A stretch of 48,500 bases of DNA. Origin: a virus. Positions 1 to 14,376 of the stretch are shown here, piece by piece. The stretch spans positions 1-48,500 of IMG/VR virus record IMGVR_UViG_3300008050_000073; one strand, given 5' to 3'. The notes under the pieces were generated by a model. It did not search any database. It saw nothing but the letters and a program-made list of their open reading frames with translations, and was not told the origin of the DNA. The translations under genes were made by a program, and so were the position numbers. Numbering within the stretch: the first letter of the stretch is position 1; the number at the start of each line of letters is the position of its first letter.

Positions 1-75
1 ATCTTCGTCTAAATAATCTTCGTCTAAAGATCCTTCACCCAAATAGTCTTCGTCCAGGTAGTCTTCATCTAGACT
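1..75 (-). repeat. Tandem 15-base repeat encoding an acidic pentapeptide
   Basis: Five consecutive 15-base units are visible at the window edge. On the coding strand they encode variants of Ser/Tyr-Leu-Asp-Glu-Asp, with one unit reading Tyr-Leu-Gly-Glu-Gly. The array may continue beyond position 1. It lies in the acidic C-terminal part of the scaffold-like protein. Confidence 0.8.
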
Positions 76-609
76 CTGTTCTCCAAGTGCGGGGGCGCCG
101 ACGCTTGAATAATCTGCTTCGCCCCAAAGATCTTCTTCGTATAAGTCTTCTGCCATCAAATCTTCCAAAAGGCCTTCAGTAAGTTCAACTTCTTCTTTGT
201 TTTCTGTGTCTTCATTCAACTTTTCTATTTGTTCTAGTAAGGCATCAAGAGGAATTTCAATTTCTGCGTCAATTGCGCCAAGTTTCTGAGTTGCTGCCTT
301 GGGGATATGTTCCATAACAGAACTTTCTTCTACTTTTTCTCCCATGGCCATATCGTCAGTTGGGGCGCCTATATCCATACCAAGTCCGCCAGCAAGAGGG
401 TCTGCTCCTGCTGCTCCTGGTGCAGGAGGGGCCCCTGCCATCATTGGATCCGCTGCAAGCGGATCAGGCATGTCTTGTTCTAGTAAAGATTCTACAGCTC
501 CCTTGATCTGCCTTGAATATTTTTCTAAAACCATTGATTCAGCATTTTTGACTGCAGCTTCACGAAGAGCATCCGCATCAATTATTGCTTGTTCTAACAT
601 GTTGGACAT
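1..609 (-). CDS. Acidic prohead scaffold/core protein (gp22-like), C-terminus outside window
   Basis: The frame is open from an ATG at 609 to the window edge (203 codons), so the C-terminus is missing. The start is supported by an AGGAGT ribosome site a few bases upstream. The N-terminal ~45 residues look helical and charged. A Pro/Ala/Gly/Met-rich stretch follows (about 48-90), then a very acidic tail ending in five pentapeptide repeats of the form [Y/S]-L-[D/G]-E-[D/G]. Sites matching the T4 prohead-protease consensus (L/I-x-E before A or G) are visible at LRE|A (residues 15-18) and LTE|G. T4 gp22 is an acidic core protein cut into small peptides by gp21. The place at the end of a head operon containing a gp21 homologue fits this role. 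The assignment is by composition, sites and position, not strong sequence similarity. A structural protein of another kind remains possible. Confidence 0.6.
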   Translation of the reverse strand, partial: MSNMLEQAIIDADALREAAVKNAESMVLEKYSRQIKGAVESLLEQDMPDPLAADPMMAGAPPAPGAAGADPLAGGLGMDIGAPTDDMAMGEKVEESSVMEHIPKAATQKLGAIDAEIEIPLDALLEQIEKLNEDTENKEEVELTEGLLEDLMAEDLYEEDLWGEADYSSVGAPALGEQSLDEDYLDEDYLGEGSLDEDYLDED

Positions 610-673: not shown

Positions 674-3526
674 TTAAGTTGAACAAACTCCAGTGACATG
701 ATACCTGATATCGTTTAATTGAGCATAGATACATGTAATGTCAACGTAGTCACCGTTAACGGCGCCGGCAATAATAGTTAAAGTTTGATCATCGGTGTGT
801 ACAATGTTAGCGGGTGCGCCTTCATCTGCAACTGAAACAATCCTAGAAATAAAAGTATCATTAGTGCCCGCGCCGGAAGCTGTCTCAATTGTGACTGCCT
901 CATCGGTGACACCGACGTCGCGGCTGGTGCCTGTCGCGGTTTCATCGTTAACTATTACTCTTATATGCCAACCTTGAAGCGCTTTAAGTGTCGCCGCGTT
1001 GGTGGTGGTTGGCAGCGTAATTGCAAATGCTGCACCGGTGGTGCTAACAAGAATAGTTGCTCCATAATAGCCCTGCCAAGTACTAGTCAAATCGAGAGCA
1101 GAAGCAGCTCGGTGCACTGGTTTCTTGTAACCAAAGCCCCCCTCGCTGTTCCAGTCGTAACTGTATGCCGTAACGATACCGGCGCCTGGACCTCCACCAT
1201 ATGACAGGAAAGCTAAATCCATATCATCAACATTGGCGCCGAGACCGAGGAGGTCGGGCACTCCATGAGTAGCGGTACCTTGGACGGCCAGGCCGGATGA
1301 AAGGGTGAGAGCGCCGCTGTCGGTGATCCTCATGTGCTCAGTCGAAGTCGTATCATCGTCGTCATCAATGACGGATGTACCGAACACAAGGTCGCCACCT
1401 TTATCGCCGTCGCCATGATCTTCTGCAGCGTACGCAGCAATAAATACGGAAGCTTCTGTAATCGTGCTAGGCACATTGCCGTCTGTTGAATCAAAACCGA
1501 TGCCGCCGAGCAAATTAGTGTCTGCAGTTGAACTATCCGCACGAACGATCATTAAGCCATCGTCGCCGTCGACGCCAGTATGATCAATCTGCAGTTTGTT
1601 TGAAGGCGATGTCGTTCCGATGCCGACGTTATCGCCCAAAATAGCCATCTTGGTGTTTCCGCCAGTTTTAAATAAAAATCTGTCGGAGCCGTGATCGTAG
1701 TCGATTTGTCCCTCATCGTTGTCAGTGGGCGACCCAAAAATAATAGAACCACCATAAGCACCGGGAGATTGAAAATGTATCTTTGGCTTTTCATTGGACT
1801 CTAGAGTTAAAATAGCGCCGTCCGTGGTGGCGATAGCTCCAGCAGAGCCGTTTTGAAGGTGTAGTGATGTTTCTGGGCTAGCCGTTCCGATACCGACGTT
1901 GCCACCGATGCCGACGTTGCCAACGGGAGTTAATAGAATATCAGCGCCTGATTCGATTGTGAGATCGGTGCCATCGCCAGAGATTTTTTCACCACTGTCG
2001 CCGAACTCAAGCGATTTTCCGCTAGCTATGAGGAAGGTCTCGCGGCCTCCATCAATTCTACAAATTTCGTTGCCATCAGAATCCATAAATTTGATATCTT
2101 TTTCTGCGGCGCCGTTGTAAATTTCGCAATCACCACTGTTGTTGGTGAATTTTATGAATTGTGTTCCAGCGTCTTTCAGGATAACATCGTTTGCAGCCGC
2201 ATCAAGAATAATGTCACCAGATGCATCAAGTAAAATATCACCGGTGCCATCAAGCGTAATCCCTGCCACAGCAGCGAGGGCTGCGGCGCCGTTGACGTCA
2301 ACTGTAAGAGTGGCAAACTTTGATCCATCATATGACCATTTTTGTTGTGTGCTGGTTGATAGCACTTCAAGCTGAGTATCTGGATCTCCCACGCCTAGGC
2401 CGACGTTGCCCTCGACAATTAACCCGTTTGTGGGAGCGGCAGTTGATCCAGCTTGACCGGCGCCGATGGTGACGCCTCCTGCAACATCAAGCTTTGATGC
2501 CACGGTGGCTGTTCCGATGCCGACGTTGCCGGACTCATCAATACGCAATCGCTCCAAATCCGAGGTGCGAAGCGTCAAGTCCCCGGCTGTATCAGATGAG
2601 CCTCTGAAACAGCGTATACCTGTGATGGGTGAGGCGCCCTCATTGTAAAACTGTATGAGGGCAGCAATATCGCCATCGGAGGTTCTGTTGTTATCAAACC
2701 TTAGTACTGTTACTTCATCAACTTCTGTGGACTCTATCTTTACGGTTGGGTTTGATCCGGCGCTTTTTACGTGAAGAATGGTGTCGGGGGCCGCAGTGCC
2801 AATGCCAACACTGTCACCCAAAATTGTCATTTTGGTGTTCCCGCCTGTTTTAAACAGAAATCTATCTGAACCATGGTCGTAATCAATCTGCCCTTCGTCG
2901 TTATCAGTAGGAGATCCAAATATAATAGAGCCGCCATAACCACCAGGAGACTGAAAATGTATTTTAGGCTTTTCATTAGACTCCAAGGTTAAAAGTGCGC
3001 CATCGGTTGTTGCGATAGTGCCAGCAGAGCCGTTTTGGATATGAAGTGATGTTTCTGGGCTGGCCGTGCCAACGCCGACCCTATTGTTGCTAGCATCTAA
3101 ATATAAAGTGTTTGAATCAAAGTTTAGATTATTTGGGATTGTGACAGCTGATGCGCTAATAATAAGATTGTCGCCACTTGCGTCACCAATAGTTGTAGTG
3201 TCAGCTGAAATCTTGAAATCTTGTACGTGAGCATCAAGAGTTCCAGTAACATATAAGTTACCAGTAATACGAGCGTCACCCGTAACATCAAGTTCGTAAG
3301 CTGGATTTAATGTTTTGATACCAACATTATCCATAAAAGAAACAGCGTTGCCAGAACCAGACTGGAGAAATGATCCTGAAACAATGATGTGGGAACCGCT
3401 CAAGGTTAGATATGAACCGCTCAAAGTTGCCTTTGCCGCATCAGTTTCACGTGAACCACTCAAGGCTAGATAAGAACCTGATAGCGGTCCGATGTTATTT
3501 ACGTATAATCTGCTAGGGTTAGCCAT
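674..3526 (-). CDS. Large fibre-like virion protein with VGIGT repeats (950 aa)
   Basis: This 950-aa protein is rich in Gly, Ser, Thr and Asp and has the repetitive look of a trimeric fibre. The first 60 residues carry repeats of LSGSYL/LSGSH type. The body carries repeated VGIGT-x-SP motifs, typical of phage fibre and adhesin shafts. A block of about 95 residues (roughly 149-247) is repeated later in the chain (PETSLH...ILGD-x-VGIGT) with about 83 of 91 aligned residues identical. I see no C-terminal S74 intramolecular chaperone. The C-terminal ~190 residues look like a distinct beta-rich tip. The ATG at 3526 has an AAGGA ribosome site and follows the 178-aa gene by 24 bases. The gene sits inside the head operon, between the protease/scaffold genes and the gp22-like gene, so it may be a capsid fibre rather than a tail fibre. 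The exact role is unknown. Confidence 0.7.
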   Translation of the reverse strand: MANPSRLYVNNIGPLSGSYLALSGSRETDAAKATLSGSYLTLSGSHIIVSGSFLQSGSGNAVSFMDNVGIKTLNPAYELDVTGDARITGNLYVTGTLDAHVQDFKISADTTTIGDASGDNLIISASAVTIPNNLNFDSNTLYLDASNNRVGVGTASPETSLHIQNGSAGTIATTDGALLTLESNEKPKIHFQSPGGYGGSIIFGSPTDNDEGQIDYDHGSDRFLFKTGGNTKMTILGDSVGIGTAAPDTILHVKSAGSNPTVKIESTEVDEVTVLRFDNNRTSDGDIAALIQFYNEGASPITGIRCFRGSSDTAGDLTLRTSDLERLRIDESGNVGIGTATVASKLDVAGGVTIGAGQAGSTAAPTNGLIVEGNVGLGVGDPDTQLEVLSTSTQQKWSYDGSKFATLTVDVNGAAALAAVAGITLDGTGDILLDASGDIILDAAANDVILKDAGTQFIKFTNNSGDCEIYNGAAEKDIKFMDSDGNEICRIDGGRETFLIASGKSLEFGDSGEKISGDGTDLTIESGADILLTPVGNVGIGGNVGIGTASPETSLHLQNGSAGAIATTDGAILTLESNEKPKIHFQSPGAYGGSIIFGSPTDNDEGQIDYDHGSDRFLFKTGGNTKMAILGDNVGIGTTSPSNKLQIDHTGVDGDDGLMIVRADSSTADTNLLGGIGFDSTDGNVPSTITEASVFIAAYAAEDHGDGDKGGDLVFGTSVIDDDDDTTSTEHMRITDSGALTLSSGLAVQGTATHGVPDLLGLGANVDDMDLAFLSYGGGPGAGIVTAYSYDWNSEGGFGYKKPVHRAASALDLTSTWQGYYGATILVSTTGAAFAITLPTTTNAATLKALQGWHIRVIVNDETATGTSRDVGVTDEAVTIETASGAGTNDTFISRIVSVADEGAPANIVHTDDQTLTIIAGAVNGDYVDITCIYAQLNDIRYHVTGVCST
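1608..1903 (-). repeat. Internal duplication, copy 2 (fibre gene)
   Basis: Second copy of a ~95-codon segment of the fibre gene. The protein repeat is nearly identical to the copy at 2786-3082, while many third codon positions differ. Confidence 0.85.
2786..3082 (-). repeat. Internal duplication, copy 1 (fibre gene)
   Basis: First copy of the ~95-codon segment, containing the shared NGSAG, ESNEKPKIHFQSPG and SDRFLFKTGGNTKM motifs. It pairs with the copy at 1608-1903. Confidence 0.85.
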
Positions 3527-4187: not shown

Positions 4188-4245
4188 CCATCCGAACGGG
4201 TTCGTGGCGATGGTACTGGTGAGGAGAGTATACCATTTTACTCTC
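4188..4245 (-). other. Two tandem hairpins in a head-operon gap
   Basis: Two inverted repeats follow the 163-aa gene. One is GAGAGTA (4224-4230) with TACTCTC (4239-4245), 8-base loop, overlapping the stop codon at 4244-4246. The other combines CCATC/GATGG (4188-4192, 4209-4213) with an inner CGAA/TTCG stem and a 4-base bulge. Neither is followed by a clear U-tract on the minus strand, so an intrinsic terminator is not well supported. An RNA processing or stabilising element is equally possible. Confidence 0.4.
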
Positions 4246-4735
4246 ATTCAGTTATGCCTGAACCAGTTAAGTGAGGCATCCTTTGAGTTGGAATATTTGT
4301 TAATTCAGCATAAACCATATACCTTAAATTACTAGTATCTCCTGTCAAATTAGAAATATATAATTTTGTGCATTTAACGCTCATGAGGCCAGTGGTTGCA
4401 AATTGGACAAGGGGCATATAATGGAAGCCTGCAATCACATCGGCGGTCGCGGCGATGTCCTGGTGGCCGGTGGGGCCGGGTACTGTAACTGCAGCTGCTG
4501 AACCGCTTTGAAAATGTACTAAAATCGGTCGATCCGCGGCGCTAACATTAGCTACAGTAATCGTTTTTGTAACATAAGGAAATTCAATCATGTGTACTTT
4601 GCCATTATCTAAATCCCAAGACCCGGTCACCCACGGCATGCCAGAAACCTGGTATGAACCTACGTTTCTTAATCCAACTCTGGGGGCGCCCCCAAATACT
4701 ACGTGATCAGTCGCTACCTTTGGATTTTCAGCCAT
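4244..4735 (-). CDS. Hypothetical virion/head-associated protein (163 aa)
   Basis: A 163-aa protein with no recognised family. It is beta-rich in appearance, with many Val, Thr and Gly residues, no membrane segment and few charged residues, which suits a small virion or decoration protein. The ATG at 4735 has TAGGAG upstream and begins nine bases after the bS21-like gene. It belongs to the same run of genes as gp21 and the small scaffold-like protein. A role as capsid decoration or as a fibre-attachment protein is only inferred from this position. Confidence 0.55.
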   Translation of the reverse strand: MAENPKVATDHVVFGGAPRVGLRNVGSYQVSGMPWVTGSWDLDNGKVHMIEFPYVTKTITVANVSAADRPILVHFQSGSAAAVTVPGPTGHQDIAATADVIAGFHYMPLVQFATTGLMSVKCTKLYISNLTGDTSNLRYMVYAELTNIPTQRMPHLTGSGITE

Positions 4736-4744
4736 TTTTTTCTC

Positions 4745-4978
4745 CTACCTTATATTTAGTTTTCTATTCCTTTCCTGCTCAGCTTTTCTGGCATTCTGGA
4801 ATTTTTTAATTTTTTCTTGTCTGCGTTTTTTTGATGGCTTGACATAGAATCTTCTATCTAAATAGTCTTCAATTATTCTTTCTTTTTTGACCTTTTTAAT
4901 AAACTTTCTTATTAAGCGATTTATATCACCGCCTACTTCTCTTATATCAACTGTTACGTTGGCGGGTCTTTTGCTCAT
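4745..4978 (-). CDS. rpsU: Phage-encoded ribosomal protein bS21 homologue
   Basis: The 77-aa product is strongly basic and matches the bS21 pattern. A short N-terminal part (MSKRPANVTVDIREVGGDIN) leads into the helical core with RLIRKFIKKVKKERIIEDYL (21-40), RRFYVKPSKKRRQEK (42-56) and a basic tail to residue 77. Cellular bS21 has the same order: a helix with R/K-rich faces, RRxFYEKPSxKRKR, then a basic tail, in about 60-75 residues. bS21 sits in the 30S subunit near the anti-Shine-Dalgarno end of 16S rRNA and helps initiation. I chose the ATG at 4978, which overlaps the previous stop as ATGA; a GTG at 4993 would add five residues. It lies within the capsid operon, between a scaffold-like gene and a virion gene. 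Viral bS21 genes are known from aquatic phages. That it enters phage-period ribosomes here is inference. Confidence 0.85.
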   Translation of the reverse strand: MSKRPANVTVDIREVGGDINRLIRKFIKKVKKERIIEDYLDRRFYVKPSKKRRQEKIKKFQNARKAEQERNRKLNIR

Positions 4979-5355
4979 ATCATTTGTTTCCACTTTTCAT
5001 CTACGATATTTAATATACCAGAGATATCAACACCAGAATCGTTAGAAGCAACACCAGCAAGTGGAGATCCAGGCTGCGAGTCCGTTATTTCCGGAACATT
5101 TTCAAAAACATCCGCTTTAACTTTTGCTGACTCATTTAAACGTCGAATTCGTTCTTGGCGATCTCGTTCGTATCGTTCTTCCAAATCTTCTTTTTCTGAG
5201 TTTTTATTCTTTTTCGTTTCCATCACGACATTTGAATTTAAACCTTTAACAACTTCAGTAATAATACCTGATAATATTCCTTCTTCTAATATTACTTCTT
5301 TAACTGTTTGTTTAATTAAGGGTTTAAGAATTTTTTTAAAATCTGCTCTTTTCAT
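4975..5355 (-). CDS. Small prohead scaffold/core-like protein (126 aa)
   Basis: A 126-aa charged protein. The N-terminal helix MKRADFKKILKPLIKQTVKE leads to VILEEGILSG, which contains L-E-E|G at residues 23-26 and fits the T4 prohead-protease consensus. A charged helical region (about 47-75, rich in Glu, Lys and Arg) follows, then a low-complexity Ser/Gly/Asp tail. It lies directly after gp21, two bases away, in the zone where T4 keeps scaffold genes. A role as core protein or scaffold processed by gp21 is the best fit, by analogy with T4 gp67/gp68/gp22, although there is no clear sequence match to these. The start ATG at 5355 has AAGAGAT upstream. Confidence 0.55.
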   Translation of the reverse strand: MKRADFKKILKPLIKQTVKEVILEEGILSGIITEVVKGLNSNVVMETKKNKNSEKEDLEERYERDRQERIRRLNESAKVKADVFENVPEITDSQPGSPLAGVASNDSGVDISGILNIVDEKWKQMI

Positions 5356-5356
5356 T

Positions 5357-5974
5357 TTAATCTCTTAATATTGAATCTAATAGTTCATCAATTTTATTAT
5401 TTTTTGATTCTCTCAAATATAAATTAACTTCTGGACTGATGTCCGTAGTCGGCGTTAAATATGCACCTGGCGTTGAAGGTTCTGACACCATATCAAAACA
5501 AATAAGTTGGAAATCATCTTCAACGATTGTTTTTCCATCTTTTTCTTTGACGGAGCCCAAGCCACGAGATGAGATACCAAGTTTGACATTGGCTTTTACA
5601 AGATCTTTGAGAATTTTGCCTGAAGGGGTATCGAGTACTTCAAATTTTCCCATTACATTCTCGCCATCCCACCACATTTTTATAGCAAGATGAGAAGCGT
5701 TCTTAAGATTGATCACGCTATCATCCGGATGGTCGAGTTCACCTAGAGATCTCCTTTCTCGAATCGCTTTTTGATAATTTTCAACTTCACGATTAAGAGT
5801 CTCTTTGCGATACACCCGTCCATTGCCATTTTTAGTGCCGGCCTTTTGACAGACGCCCACGAGGTATACTGCCCCGTCCATAGCTCTTTTTCTTTCAGCT
5901 TCGGTTAAAACATTTACTGGGCAACGACCTTCAGGGCACAGCTCAAAGTATTCTTGTAAAAGCTGTTGTGCCAT
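5357..5974 (-). CDS. 21: Prohead core protein protease (gp21-like)
   Basis: At 205 aa it is close to the length of T4 gp21 (about 212 aa). It has the expected order of motifs: a conserved N-terminal strand DGAVYLVGV with NGNGRVY, the histidine motif GELDHP (His82) and the serine motif KLGISSRGLG (Ser135/Ser136), followed by a DMVSEPSTPGAYL segment typical of this peptidase family. The enzyme is assembled inside the prohead, activates itself and then cuts scaffold and capsid proteins after L/I-x-E. A matching site, LTE|A, lies at residues 23-26 and could be its own activation site. It is preceded by the 51-aa gene and followed two bases later by the scaffold-like gene. Upstream Shine-Dalgarno is weak (GTGAGAA), suggesting translational coupling. 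Confidence 0.92.
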   Translation of the reverse strand: MAQQLLQEYFELCPEGRCPVNVLTEAERKRAMDGAVYLVGVCQKAGTKNGNGRVYRKETLNREVENYQKAIRERRSLGELDHPDDSVINLKNASHLAIKMWWDGENVMGKFEVLDTPSGKILKDLVKANVKLGISSRGLGSVKEKDGKTIVEDDFQLICFDMVSEPSTPGAYLTPTTDISPEVNLYLRESKNNKIDELLDSILRD

Positions 5975-7084: not shown

Positions 7085-7890
7085 TATTTATTCATCTCGC
7101 TAGCTAGTGATTGTATTTGAAAAATTTCAAGTATTAAATCTTTATCTAATTTTCTCTGATTATAATTCGATATACGCTCTAAGAGTTTTTGTACCTTCTC
7201 TTTTGTTATATCATCTTGAGATATTATTTTTTCTTCTAACGTACTTGAAAGTCTGGAGATCTCTTCGTATAAGAGAGCTTTAAACTCCAAGCCATTATCC
7301 ATATATGATGTAATATATTTGTTTAGAAGGTCTCTTTGTGATTCGTTTAGCTTCGTTGAATATTCTTGATTAAATTTCTCAACGAAATTTTTCATAGCTA
7401 AATTATTAATTTTAGGAAACTTATTTTTATCTTTCTGTTCTACCAAAAAAGTATCTAAAAACTTTTTTTCAAGTAAAACTTGCTTTTTAGGGCTTAAATT
7501 CTCTTGTAAAAGTTGGTTGATGGTAGCTAGTTTTTTAAAAGAAGGAACAAAATTTTTCCAAACACTTCTTGTTAGAGACTTATTCATCTTATTAATCAAT
7601 TTGGTTTGTTGGTTGAAAATATCTTTTCTGTCCAGTGAACTAAATTGTTTTTTAGCTTCAATTATTAATTTTTCTAAAGTCTCCCTTGAGAATCCTTCAA
7701 CTCCTGTAAAAGAATCATATATATCTTTTTCTTTACCTAAGCTTTTTCCTTTGCCAAAGGACTCTTTAAGAAGAGAAACAATCATATTTTTTTTAGTAGT
7801 GTCTTCTCGTAAAACAGCTTTAGTTAACTCTTTGATTAATATTTCATAAATCAAAGCAGTGTTTCTTTTTTTATTATGACTAAGTTTCAT
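7084..7890 (-). CDS. Hypothetical helical head-assembly protein (268 aa)
   Basis: A 268-aa protein that is almost entirely helical and Lys/Glu/Leu-rich, starting MKLSHNKKRNTALIYEILIK. I chose the ATG at 7890, which has GGAGAAAA upstream and overlaps the portal gene stop by 11 bases; an upstream start at 7914 would lie deeper in the portal gene and has no better ribosome site. In T4 the stretch between gp20 and gp21 encodes core/scaffold proteins (gp67, gp68), and a scaffold or portal-associated role is plausible by position. The sequence itself shows only helices and no catalytic motif. Confidence 0.6.
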   Translation of the reverse strand: MKLSHNKKRNTALIYEILIKELTKAVLREDTTKKNMIVSLLKESFGKGKSLGKEKDIYDSFTGVEGFSRETLEKLIIEAKKQFSSLDRKDIFNQQTKLINKMNKSLTRSVWKNFVPSFKKLATINQLLQENLSPKKQVLLEKKFLDTFLVEQKDKNKFPKINNLAMKNFVEKFNQEYSTKLNESQRDLLNKYITSYMDNGLEFKALLYEEISRLSSTLEEKIISQDDITKEKVQKLLERISNYNQRKLDKDLILEIFQIQSLASEMNK

Positions 7891-9883
7891 CAATAGTTTT
7901 CTCCAAAGAATCAATCAGAACTTTAATTTCGTAATTTTCTTTAAATAATTTAGCTTCTTGTTCATCATAATTAGATTCTACTTCTTCCGAAAGATTATAA
8001 AGTGATTTTAAATCAGCGTATCCTTTTAAAGTATTTCTTGTAGTGCCACTACCCAGTTCTGCGCCGACCATACCAAGCATTGAGCGTCTTCGAGGACCAG
8101 ACGATTTTCTCTTATCGTGGTCGCGCGGTTTATACCAACCATGAGATTTAGACGTAGTGGTCTGTCGTCTACCATATTTGTCTCTTTTAGTATATGGCCA
8201 ATCGTCGCGATTGCCGGGTGCTTTGGCGGCGTCGCCTGGGTCTTGGCCGGCGCCGGCAAGAAGTGGACCTCCCTCTTCCTCTGGGCCTTCTGGAGCGCCG
8301 GGTGCTTCGGCGCCTAATTCTTCAGCGCCTTCTAGTTCACCTCCCATCTCGGGGCCTGCTCCTTCAAAATCTTCCATGCCCCCAAGGGCGCCGCCCATGC
8401 CTCCGCCGGCTGCTGCTGCAGCCTCAGCAACTTGTTCTAAAGCAAAATCGTGTTTTCTATCATAATATGCTTCATGCTGCATTCTTTGGAACTCCTGTTC
8501 ACTAATATTCAAAATGTTCTTGGAAACCCAGCGTCGACTGAAATATCCTTCACTTGCGGCGTCTGCAGCCTCAAATCTAGCTTTCCAATGTTCAAGCTCT
8601 TGCAGTTCTGATATCTTTGAAGGATTATTTAAAGCTAATTTATAAGACAATAAATCGTTTCCACGATAACCCATTGTGAAAAGGTGTACGATCCCTACTT
8701 TTTCAAGTTCTGATACAAGCGATCTTTGCAATCTTTGAATTGTTCTAGCGAATCTAACATCTTTTTGTGCTAATGTTGCCTTATCTTCTTCAGACCCTTC
8801 TCCTCTTGATAAATATGAAGCAGGTATTTTTAATGCACTGAAGAGTTTATCCCTTAAATATTTAACATCATCGATAGCGTCAGTATACTTGCCTCCGCCG
8901 AGATTTTCTATCTTTGTGTTTGAAGCTTGGCCTCGGACTGGAATGTAATAATCTTCTTCAATACTCAATGGGTTATAGCGTAAATCAACTCGGCCACTAT
9001 TAACGTCGACAATTTGATTTCTTTTCATCTGAGTCATAACTTTTTGCATATATTGTTCTACATCTTCTGGTGGTATGTTGCCAACATCGATATAAAATGC
9101 CCTACGGTCAGGAGAACGAACGATCCTATATGCCATCATAGCATCTTCTAACAAAGTCAATTGGCGCCAAATGCGTCGGGCAGAATCTAAAGCAGAGGTT
9201 CCGTACGGAGCAAACTTGTCATTACCTAAAATTCGAAAATGTGCCATTTGCCAATTTTCTAAAGTTAGGCCGGCAGTGTTCCACTGATACTGTATATAAT
9301 TGGGGTTCTCTTTATCTTCTCCTTCCATACGTTCAATTTCATTTGGAGGTAAGCCAATAGCATTCTTAATTCCCTCATCCTCTTCAATGTCTAGGTAAAG
9401 AAAAAAGTCTCCATACTTACACATAGAGCGGGCCCAACCATATAAATTAAACTCAATGTTTAACACATTATAATAGAGAGTTTCCAAAACTGCTTTAATT
9501 TCAGCGTTACTACAAATAATATTTAATAGTGGTGTGTATAATGACGACGTTGTCATCTCATCGGCATAAATATCCAATGAAGAAGCTATTTCCGGTGTGT
9601 ACTCCATTTGGTCAAAGTCAACATATCTATCTAACCTATTCTGATTTGAATAGTACTCCATTTGTAGGGCGCCGTAGACATCTTGATACGCAGACATCTT
9701 AAACTCTTGACCACTAGACGATCGGATGCGCGACTTGTATTTATCCAGCTGACGTCTTTTTAATTGTCTGGTATCTTGTCTTCTATATTTGACAAGAGGT
9801 CCAGATAATAATTTAGTTAACTGTCGAAAAAGCGGATTTTTAGGATTTCTGGGATTGTTTTTCTTTTGATTATTATATGCCAT
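7880..9883 (-). CDS. 20: Portal vertex protein (gp20-like)
   Basis: The 667-aa product has the T4-type portal layout. After a basic N-terminus comes YTPEIASSLDIYADEMTT (about residues 95-115), the wing/stem region with VRSPDRRAFYIDVGN and KVMTQMKRNQIVD, and LRDKLFSALKIPASYLSRGE in the clip/crown part. The portal forms the 12-subunit ring through which DNA enters. It is longer than T4 gp20 (about 524 aa) because of a C-terminal extension: a Gly/Ala/Glu/Pro low-complexity segment (about 488-555) that is GC-rich in the DNA, a basic Arg/Lys stretch, then a helical acidic tail. It follows the terminase gene by three bases, with AAAGGA before its ATG. Confidence 0.93.
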   Translation of the reverse strand: MAYNNQKKNNPRNPKNPLFRQLTKLLSGPLVKYRRQDTRQLKRRQLDKYKSRIRSSSGQEFKMSAYQDVYGALQMEYYSNQNRLDRYVDFDQMEYTPEIASSLDIYADEMTTSSLYTPLLNIICSNAEIKAVLETLYYNVLNIEFNLYGWARSMCKYGDFFLYLDIEEDEGIKNAIGLPPNEIERMEGEDKENPNYIQYQWNTAGLTLENWQMAHFRILGNDKFAPYGTSALDSARRIWRQLTLLEDAMMAYRIVRSPDRRAFYIDVGNIPPEDVEQYMQKVMTQMKRNQIVDVNSGRVDLRYNPLSIEEDYYIPVRGQASNTKIENLGGGKYTDAIDDVKYLRDKLFSALKIPASYLSRGEGSEEDKATLAQKDVRFARTIQRLQRSLVSELEKVGIVHLFTMGYRGNDLLSYKLALNNPSKISELQELEHWKARFEAADAASEGYFSRRWVSKNILNISEQEFQRMQHEAYYDRKHDFALEQVAEAAAAAGGGMGGALGGMEDFEGAGPEMGGELEGAEELGAEAPGAPEGPEEEGGPLLAGAGQDPGDAAKAPGNRDDWPYTKRDKYGRRQTTTSKSHGWYKPRDHDKRKSSGPRRRSMLGMVGAELGSGTTRNTLKGYADLKSLYNLSEEVESNYDEQEAKLFKENYEIKVLIDSLEKTIDET

Positions 9884-9886
9884 ATA

Positions 9887-11470
9887 TTATCCTTTTAACA
9901 ACCATGTAAATTCTTCATAATCTTTTCTTGTTGATTCAAGCTTGTTTTCTATCTTGATCTTTTCATATGATACCATACCTGGTATAGCTGTGTTCAATGA
10001 TCTATTTGTCGTGGATAAAGAAGAAAGAAAAGCTTTTTGGTAATCAAGATCCCTTTGGTTAATAGAATACGCTGTATCTTTTATCCAACACCCAATTGAA
10101 CATGCCATCACTAAATCATCATTATGTTTCTTCATGGCCTGGGGCCTTCCATTATGCCAAATAAAAGTTTTCATCTCATTAAATAATCTCTTTGACTTAA
10201 CTTTAATTAGTTTATTTCTAACAAACTCTTCCATTTTGGCTATGACTAATGGCCTGGTTTTTTGTGAAGTAGTAAAACCAGGTATCACACCTGAGACATC
10301 AGACATTAAAGGGTCTACATACTCATGAGTTGACTTTCTAGAAAAATATATATTTGGATATGCGTATTCTTGTAATTTATCTAAAACTGCCCAGCCAACT
10401 GTGTTGTTTTCAATAGCGATCATACAATTACCATATTCTTTCCCAACCTCATTAAGCATATTGGCGTAAATGTCAGGAGTTGGTTTGCCTTTGTATTCAG
10501 CAATTATTTCGTTGGTTTCTAGTTTAAAAATATGAAATGTAGAATAGTCTTGACCGTCGCCGCGGGCAACGTCGGCGGCTAGCATGTAGGAATTTTGAGG
10601 ATTGTATTCTTCCCAAATCCAAAAGTTTCTATCGAATCCTGTCTTATATTTCGGCTCACACAATTGTTCCCTAATCCACTCCATATCTTCTGAGTGGAAG
10701 ACAGTCTCGCCAGACATATTAAAATTACATTCAAGTTCCTGGGCTATCTGTCTGCGTGACATATTTTTAGTTTCTTTAGCAAACCATTCTTTATCTCGAT
10801 CGGGATGAACATCCCAGGGCAGAGTCATTAAATTGAAGTCGTTGGCGCCAGATTCTGCGTCGACGCAAATTTTATGAAACCAATTGCCAACACCGTTTGG
10901 AGTTGACAACGCAATGCAACGTCCACCAGTCGACAAAGTAGGGTATAAACCAGTCCACAATTCGTCCAATCCCTCAACGTGAGCAGCTTCATCTATTACG
11001 AGAAAGGAAAGAGCTTCAGAACGACCAGCATCGGAACTAGTTGACGAAGCTTTTATTTGTGAACCATTGTATAATTCGAAAGAAGTACGATTGTCAATCA
11101 CAATATCAGAAATGCGCATCCAATCTGGAAGATGCTTGTGTATTGACTTTACTTTTTTAACCAGATTTGCCGCTGTTTGAAATTTAGTTGCGATAACTAA
11201 AACATTCTTATCGCGATGAAACATCATCAGCCACGCAACATATGCAGCAGTGATTGTTGAAATACCAAGTTGTCTGGCTTTCAGTATACAGTTAAAGCGG
11301 TAATCGTTAAAGTGCTCAATTAATTCTGTTTGATAACCATAAGTCTTAAAAGGGATCAAGCCCCTTAAAGGATGAGAAATCTTGGCATAATTGTTAATAA
11401 AATATACTGGGTCTTTACCAGACTTAATAATTTCCTTTACAATCTGCTCTTTCGGGATGTTAAATCCCAT
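9887..11470 (-). CDS. 17: Terminase large subunit (gp17-like)
   Basis: The 527-aa protein carries the packaging ATPase and nuclease domains. Residues 64-72 read KARQLGIST, a deviant Walker A in which the lysine stands at the start of the loop. Walker B is LSFLVIDEAAH (155-164, Asp160-Glu161), and IALSTPNG (187-194) is the coupling motif. The RNase H-fold nuclease starts with LAADVARGDGQDYST (about 296-310, first acidic residue Asp), then IAIENNT and the late acidic motif NDDLVMA (about 450). It cuts concatemers and pumps DNA through the portal, whose gene follows three bases later. The preceding 180-aa gene ends one base upstream of the ATG, so its expression is probably coupled. Confidence 0.94.
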   Translation of the reverse strand: MGFNIPKEQIVKEIIKSGKDPVYFINNYAKISHPLRGLIPFKTYGYQTELIEHFNDYRFNCILKARQLGISTITAAYVAWLMMFHRDKNVLVIATKFQTAANLVKKVKSIHKHLPDWMRISDIVIDNRTSFELYNGSQIKASSTSSDAGRSEALSFLVIDEAAHVEGLDELWTGLYPTLSTGGRCIALSTPNGVGNWFHKICVDAESGANDFNLMTLPWDVHPDRDKEWFAKETKNMSRRQIAQELECNFNMSGETVFHSEDMEWIREQLCEPKYKTGFDRNFWIWEEYNPQNSYMLAADVARGDGQDYSTFHIFKLETNEIIAEYKGKPTPDIYANMLNEVGKEYGNCMIAIENNTVGWAVLDKLQEYAYPNIYFSRKSTHEYVDPLMSDVSGVIPGFTTSQKTRPLVIAKMEEFVRNKLIKVKSKRLFNEMKTFIWHNGRPQAMKKHNDDLVMACSIGCWIKDTAYSINQRDLDYQKAFLSSLSTTNRSLNTAIPGMVSYEKIKIENKLESTRKDYEEFTWLLKG

Positions 11471-13258: not shown

Positions 13259-13690
13259 TTACTCTCTTGACTTCCATGCACCTTTACCGCTATAGCCACC
13301 CTGGGCACGAGTCTGTTGTCTAAGTTCTGCTGTCTTTCTCGGATCTGGACCGCGGAATGGTGGTTCATCGCCCCCTACAGTTTGAGCTAGGCTTTGCGCT
13401 TCGTCCGCAAAGCGCTGCGCATCTTCGGGGGGCACTAGATCAAATAATTGTCTTAGCACGTCCAGAACTTCGTCAGTTGACTGCCCTCCAGCGGCTAATT
13501 GTTCTATCGGATCAAGGGGCTCATCAACTGGGTCCATCCCTCCAGGAATAACATCGCCGGGCTTAAGCTTTCCGGTCGTGTCCAGTCCAACCCGGGGCGG
13601 TGCGAAAGGTCCAATAAAATCTGCCTCTTTAAGAACCTTATTCATCTCTTCTTTGATAATTTGCTTTAATCTAGATTTTGCTATTTTCAT
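13259..13690 (-). CDS. Putative packaged head protein with N-terminal protease-type site (143 aa)
   Basis: A 143-aa protein. Its first 23 residues (MKIAKSRLKQIIKEEMNKVL then KEA) form an amphipathic basic helix ending in L-K-E|A, which matches the T4 prohead-protease consensus (L/I-x-E before A/G). In T4 such an N-terminal helix directs internal proteins into the prohead, where gp21 removes it. The rest is Pro/Gly/Asp/Gln-rich and probably disordered or loosely folded (for example PGGMDPVDEPLDP). No enzyme motif is visible. The ATG at 13690 has AAGGA upstream. Packaging is inference from the site and from the gp21 homologue in this genome. Confidence 0.55.
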   Translation of the reverse strand: MKIAKSRLKQIIKEEMNKVLKEADFIGPFAPPRVGLDTTGKLKPGDVIPGGMDPVDEPLDPIEQLAAGGQSTDEVLDVLRQLFDLVPPEDAQRFADEAQSLAQTVGGDEPPFRGPDPRKTAELRQQTRAQGGYSGKGAWKSRE

Positions 13691-13693
13691 ATT

Positions 13694-14173
13694 TTAAATA
13701 TCCTTTTTATAATTCGCCTTAGCTCTTGCAAGATCTTCATCTGCATATGGTGTTCGACCTTGGCCTGAGCCCCTGAAGCGAATTCGGTCACGAAATTCTT
13801 TTTTTGGATCCGTTTGCAAGGGCAGTGTTAACTGTCTAGAGTATTCTTTAATTCGTGTTAAGAAGTCGACGAAGGCCTCGCCTGGCTCTGAAGGAGTTTC
13901 CTTCCAATTTTCTAATGGAAAAGTCGCCGTGTACATCGGAGAGCCATCGTCCCATGCGCGACTATAATCGATTATTGGCTGGCCGCTTCCCCATCGATGT
14001 TTTGAGCTTTTCGGATCTCCAGAATTGAAGCTGAATTCTTCAATTGCTTTTTCTATCATATCCCGTGTCATGCCGTCGGACATATCATCAAGTTCTGCTT
14101 TGTCATCAGCATCTGAATCCGGGTCGCCAGCTTCGTTAAGAAACTTTCGAAAATTTTCAAACAACATTTTCAC
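13694..14173 (-). CDS. Putative packaged head protein with N-terminal protease-type site (159 aa)
   Basis: I place the start at GTG 14173, nine bases after a GGAG site; ATG 14167 would remove two residues and GTG 14197 would add eight. The N-terminus MKMLFENFRKFLNEAGDP contains L-N-E|A-G, an exact match to the favoured T4 gp21 cleavage pattern, 12-16 residues in. The mature part is acidic at first (DPDSDADDKAELDD), then mixed with aromatic residues, and its C-terminus is basic. I recognise no known fold. With the next gene it makes a pair of candidate internal head proteins. The function after delivery, if any, is unknown. Confidence 0.55.
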   Translation of the reverse strand: MKMLFENFRKFLNEAGDPDSDADDKAELDDMSDGMTRDMIEKAIEEFSFNSGDPKSSKHRWGSGQPIIDYSRAWDDGSPMYTATFPLENWKETPSEPGEAFVDFLTRIKEYSRQLTLPLQTDPKKEFRDRIRFRGSGQGRTPYADEDLARAKANYKKDI

Positions 14174-14178
14174 AGAAA

Positions 14179-14376
14179 TTAGCTCCCGTGCTTCCACCTA
14201 GCCGCAATATCAACTAATGCCTCGGAACCAATATAACACAAAGTGACTGCAACCCAGTCCTCGCTTGTCAAAGAACTGCTTGCGACCAAATAAGTTGCAG
14301 TGCCCCATGCTAAAAATTTACGAGATATAAATCGGTTTACGTGTTTATCTAACCATGCTTTTACTCTTGCCATCAT
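14179..14376 (-). CDS. Small membrane protein, holin-like (65 aa)
   Basis: The 65-aa product has a basic N-terminus (MMARVKAWLDKHVNRFISRK), a hydrophobic segment (about 22-38: LAWGTATYLVASSSL) and a second one (about 43-58: WVAVTLCYIGSEALVDIA), then a basic end. Two short membrane helices in a tiny protein with a strong ribosome site (AGGAGG five bases before the ATG) fit a class II type holin, but no lysozyme gene is adjacent. A CTATTTAT motif lies 16-23 bases before the start. Lysis function is possible, not shown. Confidence 0.5.
   Translation of the reverse strand: MMARVKAWLDKHVNRFISRKFLAWGTATYLVASSSLTSEDWVAVTLCYIGSEALVDIAARWKHGS

Follow-up and report, generated by a model that had tools for sequence, protein, structure and literature searches.

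A ribosomal protein bS21 homologue fixed in the head-gene block of a marine T4-like phage lineage and its probable role in late phage translation

Phages are not expected to carry genes for components of the ribosome. Yet a 77-aa ORF initially annotated as a homologue of ribosomal protein bS21 lies among the head genes of a marine T4-like phage of bacteria, a fragment of which makes up the 48,500 nucleotides analyzed here (the window, the whole of IMG/VR virus record IMGVR_UViG_3300008050_000073). Is this ORF a genuine bS21, how firmly is it tied to its place, and what could the phage gain from it?

The ORF, for which no strand had been given, is read from the minus strand (4978 to 4745) and its product is MSKRPANVTVDIREVGGDINRLIRKFIKKVKKERIIEDYLDRRFYVKPSKKRRQEKIKKFQNARKAEQERNRKLNIR. 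A Pfam HMM search of the window's ORFs matched it to Ribosomal_S21 (PF01165) with E=5.8e-9 and 36 bits, above the curated cut-off of 27, and a PHROG search assigned it to PHROG 21469, 'ribosomal protein S21' (E=1.4e-4). Among PDB sequences, phmmer with the ORF as single query returned 27 entries at E<=1, all of them bS21 or mitochondrial bS21, and a profile built from 32 relatives returned 36 at E<=0.01, exclusively bS21. AlphaFold2 predicts two helices, residues 19-43 and 48-76, with a pLDDT of 90. Foldseek matches of this lone model were non-significant: the three from the PDB (E of 1.6 or worse) are without exception bS21, either bacterial or mitochondrial, and of three viral ones two are named S21. 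Alignment with relatives reveals the conserved basic helix 1 and the Y/F-x-K-P-S/T anchor in the window's protein, where the rRNA-anchoring motif is retained as Y45-x-K47-P48-S49. Judged by these matches, the ORF is a genuine bS21 homologue and not a chance match, in agreement with the initial annotation.

All genes discussed around bS21 share the minus strand (Table 1). In the direction of transcription they are ordered terminase, portal, three small genes, prohead protease, a 126-aa gene, bS21, a 163-aa and a 178-aa gene, a fibre-like gene and the start of an acidic gene. The T4-type prohead protease is two genes away from bS21 with portal and terminase nearby, and in relatives gp23-type major capsid genes follow about 2-6 kb downstream, which confirms the proposed location inside a head or capsid block. 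The acidic gene is 442 aa long in L002, a nearly identical, longer contig, in which a gp23-type capsid gene comes directly after it, and similar genes stand ahead of the capsid gene in Flavobacterium phage immuto and Microcystis phage Mel-JY01. Since it directly precedes the capsid gene in L002, bS21 can be placed between gp21 and gp22/gp23.

The two immediate neighbors of bS21 had been described as scaffold-like and as a virion gene, respectively. For the upstream 126-aa gene, searches of Pfam and PHROG and a further family search gave no match to a scaffold or to any other function, and the pre-capsid position is held by the acidic 442-aa gene, which is the gp22-like one; we therefore dropped the 126-aa gene as a gp22 scaffold candidate. 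The reported four-base overlap with this gene is present and consists of the sequence ATGA, so that translational coupling of the two genes is possible. The downstream 163-aa gene had no family match in Pfam or in a further family search. Its AlphaFold2 model consists mostly of strands (pLDDT 73), and a virion protein is plausible from this beta-sandwich model, although fold matches, to jelly-roll capsid folds, are only weak with TM below 0.5.

Table 1. Features of the bS21 neighborhood and further proteins mentioned in the text (window coordinates unless a locus is named).
Feature	Position	Strand	Evidence
Terminase large subunit (gp17)	9887..11470	-	Pfam 1.7e-10, PHROG 2 5.5e-55
T4-type portal (gp20)	7880..9883	-	Portal_T4 4.3e-76
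T4 gp21-type prohead protease	5357..5974	-	Peptidase_S77 1.4e-30, PHROG 207 7.4e-58
126-aa protein, no function match in searches, directly upstream of bS21	4975..5355	-	Adjacency 93/93
ATGA overlap, stop of 126-aa gene and start of bS21	4975..4978	-	Sequence
bS21 homologue, 77 aa	4745..4978, stop included	-	Pfam PF01165, PHROG 21469, PDB profile search, AlphaFold2
163-aa beta-sandwich protein, probable virion protein, directly downstream of bS21	4244..4735	-	AlphaFold2, weak fold matches
Tail-fibre-like protein, inserted between bS21 and scaffold gene	674..3526	-	PHROG 18345 tail fiber 3.9e-13
Start of gp22-like acidic scaffold gene, cut by the window's left edge	1..609	-	Identical start in L002 12370-13698
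Proteins with recurring N-terminal peptides	13259-13690, 13694-14197; L282 2065-2559, 2559-3032, 4182-4781, 4778-5893, 18710-19261; L283 8529-9041		

How constant this arrangement is was determined on relatives that were collected via the protease gene and hence independently of bS21, with the proteases of the window and of a distant relative as queries; contigs with identical protease genes were removed before counting. In all 93 non-redundant contigs with enough sequence (58/58 and 35/35 in the two samples), bS21 comes directly after the 126-aa gene, and both are on one strand. Contigs lacking bS21 (9 and 33, respectively) all end before its expected place, and neither protease-anchored sample contains a contig with room for bS21 but without it. 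Owing to the insertion of other genes, the distance between the protease and the 126-aa gene varies and reaches about 3 kb, whereas the 126-aa gene and bS21 remain side by side. The exact ATGA overlap is not general, as in relatives the two genes are often a few bases apart, but contiguity is kept. Each of 16 relatives (16/16) carries one bS21 per record. The dN/dS of bS21, 0.028 for the window versus L003, is one of the lowest values in the head block and shows strong purifying selection. What is new here is that, throughout a marine lineage, bS21 is strictly linked to a single partner gene on the same strand. This partner is more strictly adjacent to bS21 than to the protease, and it has conserved parts of its own: an invariant N-terminal helix (K.LKP.....E......G.LS....EV..G), the motif ERQ..I..LNE and a C-terminal GVDI....W.

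The phage proteins share the predicted fold, the anchor motif and the size class with cellular bS21 (rpsU, PF01165) but are set apart by residues in helix 1. We compared 91 protease-anchored phage sequences with 55 bacterial bS21 from two phyla (31 Pseudomonadota and 24 Bacteroidota). Phages and bacteria have F26, K28, an aromatic residue at 45 (Y/F/H45), P48 and S49 in common, and identity to any sampled bacterial bS21 reaches at most about 34%. Lysine occupies position 31 in 91/91 phages and in 0/55 bacteria, which have Glu, Gln, Asp or Asn instead. Position 37 is Glu or Asp in 88 of the 91 phages and mostly Arg or Lys in bacteria. As the first 44 relatives had been fetched partly by the motif KFIKKVKK, these residues of helix 1 were counted anew in the protease-anchored samples to remove the sampling bias; I/M27 and R/K34 failed there as fixed phage differences, whereas K31 and E/D37 held. 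These two fixed swaps are likewise new here. By hand alignment, Lys31 is shared by the bS21 proteins of Mel-JY01 and of the uncultured phage LR756508. Within the N-terminal helix, Chen et al. 2022 (PMC9723584) report phage-specific divergence at F. johnsoniae Arg21, Phe23, 'Asp25' and Thr28. In a Flavobacteriaceae bS21 (L134), residues 21, 23 and 28 fit this numbering and the Asp is residue 24, and residues 21, 23, 24 and 28 align with positions 28, 30, 31 and 35 of the window's protein. Judged by position, two separate phage lineages thus seem to diverge at the same places in the helix. A quick tree grouped the window's lineage (support 0.88) with Mel-JY01 as neighbor and apart from Pseudomonadota, Bacteroidota and the Pelagibacter phage HTVC008M, which on 77 columns is weak evidence.

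A tblastn search with bS21 in 50,697 named phages yielded nothing at E<=1e-3. The nearest named phages were therefore found by terminase and capsid searches: immuto, Mel-JY01 and the 484-kb uncultured LR756508, with 44-50% identity. The cultivated Mel-JY01 (PP395634, RpsU-annotated) resembles the window in its layout of terminase, portal, protease, small gene, bS21, more genes, scaffold-like gene and capsid on one strand, and it shares Lys31 and Shine-Dalgarno (SD) sites in phage genes with the window's lineage. However, its bS21 is 28% identical to the window's and keeps the bacterial-like K27 and G34, and its small gene between protease and bS21 has no clear kinship with the 126-aa gene. In LR756508 bS21 lies immediately ahead of scaffold-like and capsid genes, whereas immuto has no bS21 at the head-block place. 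The bS21 gene of this uncultured jumbo phage is unannotated (L287 29714-29950).

The initial annotation regarded the placement of bS21 as unusual. The location is real, but it had been published: of 900 phage genomes in Chen et al. 2022 (PMC9723584), 388 have bS21 at most 10 genes from core structural genes, and the usual distance to a prohead protease or capsid gene is two to four genes. The authors also proposed a late ribosome takeover by phage bS21, backed late expression in other bS21 phages with metatranscriptomes and raised virion packaging, so that a late bS21 near head genes, the takeover idea and possible packaging were all already known. The Bacteroidetes jumbo phages of that study (clades a-e) resemble the window in carrying bS21 near terminase, portal, protease and capsid genes and in an N-terminal helix that has diverged from bacteria. 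They differ in that their bS21 runs against the head genes, compared to the same strand in 93/93 contigs here, and in that Tyr54, which contributes to masking the anti-SD, is matched by an aromatic residue in these phages but by Gln61 in the window. HTVC008M, the bS21 phage that has been studied best, is likewise T4-like with a single bS21, but its gene is flanked by cobS and a heat-shock gene, close to the clamp genes and outside the head block, and encodes a host-like SAR11 sequence that stands apart from the window's lineage. Mizuno et al. 2019 (PMC6375957) described bS21 as a common acquisition of aquatic phages and reported that the HTVC008M protein is incorporated into E. coli ribosomes, which are then nearly inactive in vitro (about 5%).

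Given its homology, anchor residues, predicted two-helix fold, purifying selection, single copy and fixed same-strand place between gp21 and gp22/gp23, we consider it reasonably probable that this is a working phage bS21 that aids late phage initiation. It would be produced together with head proteins in the late, high-output phase and would displace host bS21 from the 30S subunit beside the 3' end of the 16S rRNA, and ribosomes exchanged in this way might help initiation on phage mRNAs when virion proteins are needed in bulk. Co-expression with late genes, as initially suggested, is likely in view of the position and of the published metatranscriptomes of other bS21 phages. The T4 late promoter TATAAATA had 9 matches versus 6.8 expected, and as such octamers are not enriched, late timing has no promoter support here. 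Ribosome exchange by the window's bS21 we infer from the published behavior of the HTVC008M protein in E. coli. A preference for phage mRNAs would be a further, putative step.

The nearly inactive hybrid ribosomes of Mizuno et al. could point to an inhibitor role, or to a host mismatch, rather than to redirected initiation. The phage bS21 might mainly act as a brake or poison that, once inside the ribosome, depresses initiation on host mRNAs with no favor to phage mRNAs, and initiation could suffer from the charges by which its helix 1 departs from bacterial bS21. Still, the in vitro assay combined a heterologous host with another phage's protein, and a general inhibitor made with head proteins would harm the phage at its peak need for translation, which makes this explanation improbable in our view. 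An accessory passenger gene of host origin that ended up in the head block accidentally and hardly matters for infection would agree with the frequent acquisition of bS21 by aquatic phages (Mizuno et al. 2019) and with immuto managing without it. Retention next to the same neighbor in 93/93 contigs and the dN/dS of 0.028 leave this idea hardly credible.

Alternatively, bS21 could be a basic virion or head-assembly protein, packaged or acting with the 126-aa partner, for which a ribosomal role is optional; packaged copies could be active from the start of the following infection. The fixed head-block position would fit such a function, as would the invariable pairing with the 126-aa gene, even where genes intrude between the latter and the protease, and packaging has been raised (Chen et al. 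2022, PMC9723584). However, the residues that are retained are those common to bacterial bS21, and the bS21 of HTVC008M is encoded away from the head genes. A gp21-type cleavage site at the N-terminus (IRE|V in the window) was considered and rejected: the [IL]xE motif is not kept in the family, in which A or S is frequent at position 12, and the motif overlaps a stretch where bacterial bS21 often has V-x-E/D. The earlier idea that bS21 doubles as a basic head protein thus gained no positive support, with location alone in its favor, and we regard it as unlikely.

The residue equivalent to Tyr54 is Gln61 in the window and R, E, A, Q, N or K in relatives, and no aromatic residue occurs at this position among the 91 phage sequences. 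Strong SD sites are found at 45-47% of genes in three near-complete relatives compared to 12-16% in shuffles, and at 6% in immuto. Given these sites, the host is most simply an SD-using bacterium, and this SD-using, Tyr54-less character of the lineage, as read from the genomes, is new here. A comparison within the near-complete relative G003 suggested stronger SD sites in its head/tail stretch (24/38 versus about 64/153) but was discarded since the stretch had been picked after viewing the bins.

If the hosts were Bacteroidota, SD sites in phage genes and the missing aromatic residue could mean that a Tyr54-less phage bS21 exposes the anti-SD of an SD-blind ribosome, so that SD-bearing phage mRNAs gain over SD-less host mRNAs and the phage protein would re-tune the ribosome. 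F. johnsoniae Y54A ribosomes indeed make 3-fold more protein from strong-SD mRNA (PMC9976891), and the predicted hosts of marine Far-T4-like phages are Flavobacteriales or Bacteroidetes (PMC13037479, PMC7198788). On the other hand, SD-using bacteria lack this Tyr54 as well, and immuto, a Flavobacterium phage, has neither SD sites nor bS21; we consider this scenario very unlikely. Neither promoter type nor a phage GroEL gave a host signal. The promoter comparison (TAnnTTTG versus sigma-70) was uninformative because the Flavobacterium phage used as positive control gave no signal, and the best matches of the phage GroEL are 48% identical in both Bacteroidota and Pseudomonadota. Bacterial genomes with near relatives were also rejected as a guide to the host, as the three matches (L129-L131) are phage contigs binned into MAGs. 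In these GTDB MAGs (Flavobacteriaceae NAT231, Micavibrio NAT141 and Acidiferrobacteraceae RS826, respectively), the contigs with protease and bS21 genes give a spurious second bS21.

Some further features of these genomes were noted. The GroEL-like gene of G003 (loci L275 and L281) lies at L275 6445-7656 and is about 45% identical to bacterial GroEL; by eye only, G003 also has genes resembling Hsp20, peptide deformylase, IMP dehydrogenase and PhoH. In the window and in relatives, several otherwise different proteins begin with one of two recurring peptides, MKI(S/T)K..L.QIIKEE or (M)KKLFE.FR.FINE, which look like shared targeting or assembly signals.

In conclusion, a bS21 fixed in the head block, two helix-1 swaps that can each be reverted singly and a cultivated phage, Mel-JY01, with a matching layout make this lineage a good test case for the proposed redirection of translation by phage bS21.
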